From Cyanobium sp. WAJ14-Wanaka (lineage in GTDB: Bacteria; Cyanobacteriota; Cyanobacteriia; PCC-6307; Cyanobiaceae), in assembly GCF_024345375.1 (NCBI RefSeq), contig NZ_JAGQAZ010000002.1:310001-374000 (forward strand): a DNA stretch of 64,000 nt. The letters are read 5' to 3'. Below the pieces are notes generated by a model that was not told the origin of the DNA, did no database searches, and was given only the letters and a program-made list of their open reading frames with translations. This document shows, piece by piece, positions 37,052-49,357 of the stretch. Both the position numbers and the translations under genes were made by a program. Positions within the stretch are counted from its first letter, which is position 1. Each line of letters opens with the position of its first letter.

Positions 37052-39069
37052 GAATGGGGGCCATGGTCCCCTTCCAACTCCACGCCCCCTACGAGCCCAA
37101 GGGCGACCAGCCCAGCGCCATTAAGGCGATGGTTGCTGGCGTCAATCAAGGCGAGCGCTACCAAACGCTTTTGGGTGCAACGGGCACTGGCAAGACCTTT
37201 TCGATTGCCAATGTGATCGCCCAAACCGGGCGCCCCACCTTGGTCTTGGCCCACAACAAAACCCTGGCGGCCCAGCTCTGCAATGAGCTGCGGGAATTTT
37301 TCCCAAACAATGCCGTTGAATATTTTATTTCCTACTACGACTACTACCAGCCCGAGGCCTATGTGCCCGTCTCGGACACCTATATCGCTAAAACAGCTTC
37401 AATCAACGAAGAAATAGACATGCTGCGCCACTCGGCGACGCGGTCGTTATTTGAGCGTAAGGATGTGATTGTGGTGGCCTCAATCAGTTGTATATACGGC
37501 TTAGGAATTCCTTCGGAATACCTAAAAGCTGCGGTCAAATTTGAGGTGGGATCCACCCTAAATCTGCGGGGCTCCCTCAGGGATTTAGTCAATAATCAAT
37601 ACTCTCGCAATGATCTGGAGATCACTCGGGGCCGTTTTCGGGTGCGGGGGGATGTGCTCGAGATTGGCCCGGCCTATGAAGATCGGCTGGTGCGCATTGA
37701 GCTCTTTGGCGATGAGGTTGAGGCGATTCGCTACGTGGACCCCACCACCGGCGAAATTCTGCAGAGTATGGATGCCATCAATATTTACCCGGCCAAGCAC
37801 TTTGTGACCCCCAAGGAGCGGCTGGGTGATGCCATTAAGGCGATCCGCTCAGAGCTCAAGGCGCGCCTAGAACTGCTCCAGGGCCAGGGGCGCCTGCTGG
37901 AGGCCCAACGACTGGAGCAGCGCACCACCTACGACCTCGAAATGTTGGAACAGGTGGGCTATTGCAATGGGGTTGAAAACTACGCCCGCCATTTGACGGG
38001 CAGGGAAGCTGGCACGCCACCGGAATGTTTGATTGATTATTTCCCTAAGGATTGGCTTTTGGTGGTGGATGAAAGCCATGTCACCTGCTCCCAATTGCAG
38101 GCGATGTACAACGGCGACCAATCCCGCAAGGGGGTGCTGATTGAGCACGGTTTCCGTTTACCCAGTGCGGCGGATAATCGGCCCTTAAAAGGTGATGAAT
38201 TTTGGCAAAAAGCTGGTCAGACAATCTTTGTGAGCGCTACCCCTGGTAATTGGGAGATGGCGCAGAGTAAGGGCCAGATAGTGGAGCAGGTGATTAGGCC
38301 CACCGGGGTGCTGGATCCGATTGTGGAGGTGCGCCCCACCGATGGCCAGGTCGACGACCTGCTCGGTGAAATCCGTGAGCGCTCTGATAGGCAGGAGCGG
38401 GTTTTGGTGACGACCCTGACCAAGCGCATGGCGGAAGACCTCACCGACTACCTGGCGGAAAATGGGGTGAGGGTGCGTTACTTGCACTCTGAAATTCATT
38501 CACTGGAGCGAATTGAGATTATTCAGGATCTACGCAATGGTGAATACGACGTGCTGGTGGGTGTGAACCTGCTGCGTGAAGGCCTGGACTTGCCCGAGGT
38601 TTCGCTGGTGGCGATTCTGGATGCGGATAAGGAAGGTTTTCTGCGGGCCGAACGCTCCCTAATCCAAACGATTGGCCGTGCTGCCCGCCACGTTGATGGC
38701 AAGGCCCTGCTCTATGGCGACAACCTCACCGATTCGATGGCCAAGGCGATTTCAGAAACGGAGCGCCGCCGGGCAATTCAGCATGCCTACAACGTCAAGC
38801 ACGGCATCACCCCAAGCCCAGCGGGCAAGCGGGCGGGCAATTCAATTTTGTCGTTTTTGGAGGTTTCCCGCCGCCTCAACGACGAGCAGATTGAGCCAGT
38901 GGTCGATAAGGCCGAATACAACCTGGTGCCCCTGGATGCCCTGCCCGAGCTAATCCAACAGTTGGAGGAGAAGATGAAGGCTGCCGCCAAGAATCTAGAG
39001 TTTGAGGATGCGGCGAATCTGCGCGACAAAATCAAAACACTGCGCCAAAAATTAGTTGGCAAGTGCTAA
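37048..39069 (+). CDS. uvrB: Excinuclease ABC subunit B
   Basis: Damage-verification helicase of nucleotide-excision repair. It is 673 residues: Walker A GATGTGKT at 43-50, the beta-hairpin [12 protein letters not shown], helicase motifs including [48 protein letters not shown] and [14 protein letters not shown]-terminal UVR motif ([24 protein letters not shown]) contacts UvrC. It is translationally coupled to ycf23. The end overlaps the next gene by seven bases. Confidence 0.98.
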
Positions 39070-43661: not shown

Positions 43662-44447
43662 TCAGATCCGCAGGGCGCTCAGCACCGGGTGCTGGCCAGT
43701 GTGGGCCAGGGCGGGGTGATCGGTCACCAGCACGGCCGCACCGCTTTGGATGGCCGTGGCCAGCTCGATGGCGCCGATTTCATCGAGCTGTGGTTCCTGG
43801 CGGCGCAGACGAACGGCGGCCGCAGCCATGGCCGCATCAGGACTGATCAGTTGCCAGTGGCGACCATCGGCAAAGGCCTGGCTGTAGCGCTGGACCAGGG
43901 CTTCATCGCCGCAGGCCAGGGGACCTTCCAGCACGCGCATCAGGCTGACCGTGCTCAACACCCCCAGCCAATAGCCCTGGGCGATCCCTTCGATTAGGGG
44001 CCCGAGATATTTGCCAGTGCCCTTGGCATCACAGATGTAGGCCACTAGGGCACTGCCATCGAGGGCCACCTTCGAGCCGCGACGCAGCAGGTGGGGTGCA
44101 AAGGCCTGGTCCCGTTGCACGGACTGCACATAGGCCGGGGTTGCGGGTACGGGCCGGGCGGGACGTGGTGAATCGCGGTTCCAGCAGTGACGACCGCTGC
44201 CCTGCAGGCCCAAGAGTGATTGGATCTGCCGTTGACGACGGATCGGATCCGCCGGCGGTTGATCGGCGAGGGGTACCAGGGCGGCAACGGGTTTGTGATG
44301 TCTTTTGATCAATATCCGTTCCCCGCCTGCGGCGCGGTCAAGCAGCTCCGGTAGGCGACGTCGTGCGGCCTCCACACCGACACTGTCAGCCATTTCAAAG
44401 GCTGAGCTTGGTTGGCACTTGGGCTGGGGCTGGGGAGTCGGATTCAT
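43662..44447 (-). CDS. Phd/YefM antitoxin domain fused to a PIN domain with altered active site
   Basis: A 261-residue single protein joining two parts normally encoded by separate toxin-antitoxin genes. Residues about 19-62 form a Phd/YefM DNA-binding domain (VGVEAARRRLPELLDRAAGGERILIKRHHKPVAALVPL). A basic, Pro/Arg-rich linker runs to about 125. Residues 126-258 are a PIN nuclease fold with D130 in VALDGSALVAY, STVSLMRVLEGPL and IELATAIQSGAAVLVTDHPAL. The usual Glu in the third-strand motif is Arg171, and the Asp expected just before AIxLATA is Gly225, although E174, D222 and E223 are near. The nuclease may be dead or reshaped. Another start is the ATG at 44393. TGTACA palindromes lie upstream. 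Confidence 0.88.
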   Translation of the reverse strand: MNPTPQPQPKCQPSSAFEMADSVGVEAARRRLPELLDRAAGGERILIKRHHKPVAALVPLADQPPADPIRRQRQIQSLLGLQGSGRHCWNRDSPRPARPVPATPAYVQSVQRDQAFAPHLLRRGSKVALDGSALVAYICDAKGTGKYLGPLIEGIAQGYWLGVLSTVSLMRVLEGPLACGDEALVQRYSQAFADGRHWQLISPDAAMAAAAVRLRRQEPQLDEIGAIELATAIQSGAAVLVTDHPALAHTGQHPVLSALRI

Positions 44448-44462
44448 GGTGATGGCAGGGCC

Positions 44463-44578
44463 CAGGGGGGTTTGCTTGGTTTTTGGTTTGAGGTTTTGTT
44501 GGGAGGTCTTGTTTTTTGATTTGCTTTTTAGCTTGCTTTTTGGTTTTCCTTTAGGGCTTGGTTGGGTCTTTTTTGAAG
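44463..44578. other. G+T-rich tract between the Phd-PIN gene and cobH
   Basis: About 115 bases in which the plus strand is almost only G and T, with T runs of five to six and very few A or C. Read as the leader of the minus-strand Phd-PIN gene it would be A/C-rich and unstructured. No open frame of its own is credible. Confidence 0.7.
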
Positions 44579-44591
44579 CCTATGGAAATTA

Positions 44592-44634
44592 TGTACAGGC
44601 TGTACAGCTTATGTAAGGCCTACAGGATGTACAG
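44592..44634. promoter_or_regulatory. Probable operator: three TGTACAG boxes plus a TGTA-N5-TACA palindrome
   Basis: TGTACAG occurs at 44592, 44601 and 44628, and TGTAAGGCCTACA, a near-perfect palindrome, at 44612-44624. TGTACA is the established core of YefM-family antitoxin operators. The cluster lies between the divergent Phd-PIN gene, which carries a YefM-like domain, and cobH. Whether it controls one or both genes is inference. The first TGTACAG lies 145 bases from the Phd-PIN start, while the last is 16 bases from the TTG of cobH. Confidence 0.65.
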
Positions 44635-44649
44635 AATTGGTAAACAGCT

Positions 44650-45423
44650 TTGAAGTGGCTAGGGCCGTTGTCAGTCCACCGTCTGCCCGATCAATTTTCT
44701 GATCAGTTGCCCGATCAGTTACCTGATCCTTCACCGTCACCCCAGGCAGTGGTACCCCAGGCTTTCGACCATCCGATTTTTAGTGAAAGCATCGCCTTGA
44801 TCCGCTCAGCTTTGGCCCAGGAGCCGGTGGATCTGCTTTCTCCGCTTTCCCCATTGGAAAGTGATGTGCTGCTGCGATTGATCCATAGCAGTGGCGACCT
44901 CAGCCTGGCGAATGATCTCCAGTTTTCCCCTGGGGCCTGCGAAGCCGGAGCGGCGGCCCTTTCAGCCGGCGCAGTGATCCTCACCGACACGGCCATGGCG
45001 GCGGCGGCGGTGGCTCCAATGGCACGGCGCACCTTCGCTAATCGGGTGGCCAGCGTGCTCGATTGGGCCCCTGCCCAACCCCCAGCCGGCAGCACCAGAA
45101 CGGCTGCGGGGATGGCGCTGGCCCTGGCGGATCTAGGTCAGGTTCGATTAGGCGGCACTGGCGTTGTTGTGTTGATTGGCAGTGCTCCCACTGCCTTGGA
45201 GCGACTGCTGGAGTTGGTGGCAGCTGGGGCCTGTCCGTCGCCGGCCCTGGTGGTGGGCATGCCCGTGGGGTTTGTGGGGGTGGAACAGAGCAAGCGTCAC
45301 CTGGGCGCCAGTGGCCTAGTGCACCTGGGGCTCGGGGGCTCCAAGGGCGGAGCCGGATTGGTGGCTGCTGCCTGTAATGCCCTGCTGCGCCACGGGTTTT
45401 TGGCGGCGGCAGAGCAGGCCTAA
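44650..45423 (+). CDS. cobH: Precorrin-8X / cobalt-precorrin-8 methylmutase
   Basis: Moves a methyl group to convert (cobalt-)precorrin-8X to hydrogenobyrinic or cobyrinic acid in corrinoid synthesis. The catalytic core begins about residue 40 with HPIFSESIALIRSAL and includes GAVILTDTAMAAAAV and LVVGMPVGFVGVEQSKRHL, typical of CobH/CbiC. The start is uncertain. TTG 44650 gives 257 residues with a DQLP-repeat N-terminus coded by a 12-base DNA repeat, while GTG 44749 would give 224 residues, closer to the family. TGTACA boxes lie just upstream. Confidence 0.88.
   Translation: MKWLGPLSVHRLPDQFSDQLPDQLPDPSPSPQAVVPQAFDHPIFSESIALIRSALAQEPVDLLSPLSPLESDVLLRLIHSSGDLSLANDLQFSPGACEAGAAALSAGAVILTDTAMAAAAVAPMARRTFANRVASVLDWAPAQPPAGSTRTAAGMALALADLGQVRLGGTGVVVLIGSAPTALERLLELVAAGACPSPALVVGMPVGFVGVEQSKRHLGASGLVHLGLGGSKGGAGLVAAACNALLRHGFLAAAEQA
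44689..44728. repeat. 12-base tandem repeat GATCAGTTGCCC-like
   Basis: Just over three copies of a 12-base unit: GATCAATTTTCT, GATCAGTTGCCC, GATCAGTTACCT, GATC. They either encode the DQFS-DQLP-DQLP run near the start of cobH, or, if cobH starts at 44749, form a regulatory array of evenly spaced GATC sites. Confidence 0.85.
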
Positions 45424-49255: not shown

Positions 49256-49357
49256 CTAGTTGGTGGGTGCTTGGTGGTTTTCAAGACGCTTAAGGAGATT
49301 GGTCAATTGACCAACTTCCCTAAGACACGCCAACCACCCTCCTAAGCCGCACCCGCC
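49256..49357 (-). pseudogene. Short coding relic, possibly C-terminus of a four-helix-bundle protein
   Basis: No complete gene, but the minus strand holds an open stretch ending in TAG with peptide CLREVGQLTNLLKRLENHQ. It resembles the last helix of the four-helix-bundle family (TIGR02436, ...EVGRMLNGLIRSLE). A stop lies just upstream, so the rest is gone. A second copy of its core sits at about 53.66 kb (EVGQLTKLLERSE). The DNA core TTGGTCAATTGACCAA is itself a 16-base palindrome. The family match is tentative. Confidence 0.35.
49299..49318. repeat. 20-base repeat with 16-base palindrome, copy 1
   Basis: TTGGTCAATTGACCAACTTC, also found at 53656-53675 in the same orientation. The first 16 bases are a perfect palindrome. 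The two copies flank the rfbA-rfbC-ATPase-rfbD block. Confidence 0.9.

Follow-up and report, generated by a model that had tools for sequence, protein, structure and literature searches.

Introduction

Toxin-antitoxin pairs are usually viewed as addiction or defence modules. Antitoxins of the Phd/YefM family habitually regulate their own expression, and the core of the YefM operator is the palindrome TGTACA (PMC7730913, PMC4803016). In the YefM-YoeB and Axe-Txe systems of E. coli and Enterococcus, one long and one short palindrome with this core lie at the promoter of a Phd/YefM-domain gene at a centre-to-centre spacing of 12 bp, and the partner is YoeB. VapBC46-type modules combine a Phd-fold antitoxin domain, represented by the VapB46 N-terminal domain (6jqy), with a PIN domain; the literature searched yielded no VapB46 operator. 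One report describes a toxin and its antitoxin joined in one chain (PMC4826407). According to another, the plasmid-borne MtvT/MtvA pair of Pseudomonas contains a toxin without detectable toxicity and has been reused to regulate other functions (PMC11826091). Short palindromes dispersed between genes are furthermore known from the REP/RAYT elements.

Here, we describe an array of TGTACA boxes beside a Phd-PIN fusion gene of Cyanobium sp. WAJ14-Wanaka. The sequence-only reading had likened the boxes to YefM-type operators, which holds for the TGTACA core beside a Phd/YefM-domain gene and may extend to its putative promoter; the spacing, however, is 9 bp and not 12 bp. Moreover, two to five boxes are present instead of one long and one short palindrome, the partner is a PIN domain instead of YoeB, both halves form one protein, and further sites exist in the genome. 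The array would work like a YefM-type autorepressor operator, but falls outside that class by its spacing and its toxin partner. Unlike VapBC46-type modules, the protein is a single polypeptide with a degenerate PIN active site and a fixed place between cobH and holA, and neither by gene organisation nor by active site is it a type II toxin-antitoxin module. It shares the single chain with the system of PMC4826407, but here toxin residues are lost, and the antitoxin half is a DNA-binding domain accompanied by a probable operator array. Compared with MtvT/MtvA, the fusion is chromosomal and accompanied by palindromic sites across the genome. From REP/RAYT elements the dispersed palindromes differ in that many carriers have no RAYT and that their cores resemble operators and go with the fusion gene.

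Results

The fusion gene and its box array

The features of the locus are listed below. Positions refer to the window, i.e., the whole stretch of 64,000 nucleotides that was analysed.

43662..44447, minus strand: Phd-PIN fusion gene, 261 aa, under purifying selection
43665..44081, minus strand: PIN (VapC-like) domain, residues 123-261; first acid retained, R in place of the second, G in place of the third, fourth apparently retained
44262..44387, minus strand: Phd/YefM DNA-binding domain, residues 21-62; among solved structures closest to the N-terminal domain of VapB46 (6jqy)
~44464..44580, no strand: T/G-rich stretch that separates the array from the start of the fusion; not found in the g1 relatives used for comparison
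44588..44617, minus strand: promoter-like site toward the fusion gene, CTTACA (44617-44612), 18 nt, CATAAT (44593-44588); prediction only
44592..44633, minus strand: array of five 6-bp slots with a 9-bp period (starts 44592, 44601, 44610, 44619, 44628); same period in relatives
44628..44633, minus strand: slot 1, TGTACA, exact; AATTC comes just before it on the fusion strand, which also holds for relatives and dispersed sites
44619..44624, minus strand: slot 2, TGTAGG, degenerate
44610..44615, minus strand: slot 3, TACATA, degenerate
44601..44606, minus strand: slot 4, TGTACA, exact
44592..44597, minus strand: slot 5, TGTACA, exact
44650..45423, plus strand: cobH (precorrin-8X methylmutase), divergent from the fusion; conservation begins near 44749

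The neighbouring gene had been proposed to encode a YefM/Phd-like domain, and this is borne out by a match to PF02604 (Phd/YefM) above the Pfam cut-off at residues 21-62. The domain was matched in all 12 fusion homologues. For the C-terminal part, a structure model (mean pLDDT 75) adopts a PIN fold with VapC-like proteins as best matches, and PF01850 was found at low score in 9 of the 12. In a sequence alignment of these homologues with ordinary PIN proteins of related genomes, acid 1 is kept in 11 of 12 and is E in the twelfth. R or Q takes the place of acid 2 and one of G, A, C, S or H that of acid 3, and acid 4 mostly remains D. With two of the four acids gone, the nuclease is predicted from this alignment to be probably dead. 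The fusion is a single frame of 261 codons, and most homologues likewise form a single frame rather than two genes in an operon. Ratios of dN/dS of ~0.08-0.25 in both the Phd and the PIN domain (g1 homologues, where calculable) indicate that the fusion protein is maintained. A scan of named genomes identified a homologue in Synechococcaceae bacterium WBB_10_009. In the fusion's own linker, the paired-box sequence itself occurs in frame (FVQPVQ) in G005, G006 and, one base off, G013 (L003 ~1776, L004 ~1770).

Three exact TGTACAG boxes within 43 bases are found, as first read, at 44592-44598, 44601-44607 and 44628-44634, and the sole further TGTACA of the window lies at 38105. A fourth palindrome, TGTA-N5-TACA, is present at 44612-44624, but is better read as slots 2 and 3 of the array; relatives show the same 9-bp period, several of them with intact boxes. 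On the fusion strand, the array reads AATTC-TGTACATCC-TGTAGGCCT-TACATAAGC-TGTACAGCC-TGTACA-TAATT, giving five slots at an exact period of 9. Slots 3 to 5 overlap the predicted promoter-like site, which has 9 of 12 consensus matches (one such site found vs 0.2 expected; prediction only).

The array follows the Phd domain

The relatives examined share the gene order cobH (divergent), fusion, holA, lysC, including those from which the fusion is missing. Boxes with the 9-bp period lie 5' of the fusion in all g1 genomes that have a full one (G000, G005, G006, G007, G008, G011, G013 and G014), among them four perfect boxes each in G008 and G014 and two in G011. The homologues judged in g10, g31, g6 and g45 show at least two slots at this period, some with one base changed; the sequence obtained for G206 lies inside the gene. 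In several genera of the family, two to five slots are found just upstream of the fusion. In relatives, the boxes are usually located within ~110 bp upstream of the fusion and often at 10-60 bp, with a pair several hundred bp upstream in G059.

Seven genomes without the fusion (G001, G002, G009, G010, G012, G019 and G033) have no TGTACA in the cobH-holA gap, and no boxes are present at the locus in G015 and G004, where C-terminal remnants of the fusion persist without the Phd domain. Thus, the array follows the DNA-binding domain and not cobH. The sequence-only reading had raised conservation of the boxes in relatives and their belonging to the Phd-PIN gene, and both are upheld: boxes were found with almost all intact fusions examined, and none where the fusion is missing or its Phd domain lost. 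Most likely, the array is an autoregulatory operator of the fusion gene.

Paired boxes elsewhere in the genomes

The pair TGTACA-N3-TGTACA, on which the sequence-only reading did not remark, also occurs elsewhere in the window's own genome and in those of relatives, mostly between genes and within longer palindromes whose arms share ATTC before and GAAT after the pair. Among g1 genomes, those with a full fusion have 2-11 exact pairs each, the fusion's own operator included, and five without it have none. G001, G004 and G015 carry three each without an intact fusion, which counts against a role of the fusion at these sites. The reversed control pattern was absent from all g1 genomes searched. 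A covariance model found up to ~20 copies per genome, both strands counted once; in this model (R1) sequence dominates and the stem was set two columns off, as seen in a sliding control. When a matrix was trained on dispersed sites with the fusion loci excluded, the g1 fusion operators were among the top matches of the cobH region, scoring up to 52 bits (G011, arms included). A literature search with 15-mers of the sites found no paper.

In 300 genomes of the family, the fusion was present in 50, exact N3 pairs in 44 and both in 36, i.e., pairs occurred in 36 of 50 genomes with the fusion vs 8 of 250 without (Fisher 2e-27, kinship ignored). These counts take exact pairs only and miss degenerate sites, include the fusion's own operator among the sites and score the G015 remnant as fusion-positive. 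Within genera, pairs were found with vs without the fusion in 14/15 vs 0/9 genomes of g6, 6/6 vs 1/7 of g31 and 9/9 vs 2/7 of g1 (8/8 vs 3/8 with the G015 remnant taken as absent); in genus g10, the association was not significant (7/16 vs 2/8).

At orthologous dispersed sites of fusion-carrying genomes, 230 of 240 core positions were identical (96%) vs 714 of 1060 (67%) in the surroundings, defined as 25 bp on either side plus the spacer. With partners chosen by flanking genes only (sets A, B, C and E), the numbers were 182/192 for the core and 520/800 for the flanks. Core changes are mostly T to C at the first base or A to G at the last, and GTAC is kept. In G001, which has no fusion, the site between mazG and arfB is split by an insertion, and G012 cleanly lacks it.

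Genes around the sites were called with a simple codon-usage script. Out of 42 sites, 34 are intergenic, 7 lie inside genes and 1 is at a contig edge; the intergenic ones comprise 18 convergent, 13 codirectional and 3 divergent gaps. The sites are thus rarely upstream of genes and rarely divergent (3/34), unlike ordinary repressor or promoter operators. In the N-terminal part of ftsY, the paired-box sequence lies in frame (L086, L107, L111 and L120, ~2001).

Proposed mechanism and alternative explanations

We think it rather probable that the array is the operator of the fusion gene and that the PIN-degenerate fusion acts as a transcription factor, which probably binds the dispersed palindromes as well. 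The Phd half would bind TGTACA (YGTACR) boxes 9 bp apart as neighbouring dimers, and through the array the protein would repress its own promoter. This autoregulation is the best-supported step, given the paired boxes beside the gene, the predicted promoter-like match and the habit of the Phd/YefM family. The PIN half, whose nuclease residues are lost, would have been retained, probably because it serves multimerisation or binds a partner; the fusion would then be a transcription factor rather than a toxin-antitoxin pair. Association and core conservation point to a possible genome-wide role, in which the fusion probably also binds the scattered two-box palindromes, mostly in short intergenic gaps. 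We infer a DNA-binding protein derived from a toxin-antitoxin pair with a dispersed set of sites. The comparison of sequences suggests that one such pair was fused, lost its toxic site, became fixed at one chromosomal place, kept its operator and came to be associated with operator-like sites elsewhere. If so, the way in which a selfish module turned into a regulator could be traced here.

Alternatively, the dispersed palindromes could be selfish or structural repeats of the REP/RPE kind, related to the array by descent only, with the fusion not binding the copies. The copies are indeed long palindromes with compensating changes in their arms (34 double-changed cells vs 19 expected with the corrected stem structure), and they also occur inside genes (ftsY and the fusion's own linker). 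At one orthologous gap, between mazG and arfB, ~40 bp are cleanly missing in G012, which would fit a repeat family. However, the presence of the sites tracks the fusion in three genera, the cores are far better conserved than the arms, and a RAYT transposase is absent from four copy-rich genomes (G005, G008, G011 and G014), on which ground RAYT was rejected as dispersal agent. We consider this explanation unlikely. A gene for a Y1 transposase (PF01797) is located at G000:C1:821637-821978 in the window's genome.

A more speculative extension, to which we give a low probability, would make the fusion a global factor whose palindromes, over-represented between convergent genes, serve as roadblocks that end or separate transcription in Rho-less picocyanobacteria. 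The share of convergent sites is 18/34 vs a background of ~10-12%, which is indicative only in view of the rough gene caller, the non-independent loci and the small background. Most transcription units of Synechococcus elongatus are not ended by known pathways (PMC13289151), and the sites may have a link to how cyanobacterial transcripts end. Were the roadblock reading true, the spread and the retention of the operator and the dispersed sites would have gone hand in hand with those of the protein. Intrinsic terminators were also considered and rejected, since dispersed sites inspected by eye had no consistent T-run after the palindrome.

Another explanation holds that ordinary Phd/YefM antitoxins, and not the fusion, bind the boxes and the dispersed pairs. 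Further antitoxins of this family are present in these genomes, and a variant with an 8-bp period precedes some of them: TGTACA-N2-TGTACA immediately precedes genes for Phd-type antitoxins in the ribH gap of G001, G004, G013 and G015. This form prevails in G004 and G015, where the Phd domain of the fusion is missing. The 9-bp form, in contrast, is linked to the fusion, nearby ordinary Phd-PIN modules often have no box pair at their start, and many dispersed sites do not lie beside such modules. This makes the explanation improbable, and box spacing may offer a lead that separates the fusion (9 bp) from its antitoxin cousins (8 bp).

It was also proposed that the fusion protein could control cobH through the array, which would connect B12 synthesis with a protein of toxin-antitoxin origin. 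The fusion and the divergent cobH have one gap in common, and in some g10 genomes this gap is only ~40 bp, so that both promoters may overlap the boxes. The claim that the boxes are much closer to cobH is correct for its first TTG at 44650, 16 bp from the array, but does not hold for the conserved part near 44749 or for relatives, in which the boxes are nearest to the fusion. A cobH start near 44749 fits, as the conserved domain begins there; the closeness reflects the choice of start codon and a feature of this genome, where the T/G-rich stretch parts array and fusion. The longest cobH frame opens with 33 codons (44650-44748) that are repetitive (DQLPDQLPDP) and probably untranslated. Against the link stand the seven relatives with cobH and holA but no fusion, whose gap contains no TGTACA, the predicted promoter, which points to the fusion, and the lack of any cobalamin gene among the neighbours of the dispersed sites inspected. 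Co-control of this divergent gene has no specific support and appears to us unlikely.

Chance clustering of a palindromic hexamer can practically be dismissed and the boxes at 44592-44634 are real, for although single TGTACA hexamers are expected ~3.4 times per window, three within 43 bp arose in 0 of 300 dinucleotide shuffles of the whole window and TGTACA-N3-TGTACA in 1 of 300, and the array is conserved across genera.

Further palindromes

In the gap between ribH and a GNAT acetyltransferase gene (L164, L167, L168 and L169), the Phd-type antitoxin gene directly downstream of the 8-bp pair is an inserted one. The same gap of G008 (L160) contains only a 9-bp-period palindrome and no antitoxin gene, and in the ribH gap of the window (49290-49320) a different palindrome is found, TTGGTCAATTGACCAA. 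In the window's own genome, L106 (G000:C2:441073-445087) has three palindromes ~700 bp apart in a cassette-like arrangement (sites near 536, 1247 and 2001); the copies border a Uma2 gene and the remnant of a Phd-like antitoxin and share longer flanks. Finally, palindromes with the 8-bp period are numerous in L182-L185 (G004 and G015), where they lie among toxin-antitoxin, transposase-like and DUF2887-like genes and are nearly identical to each other, which suggests a recent spread.
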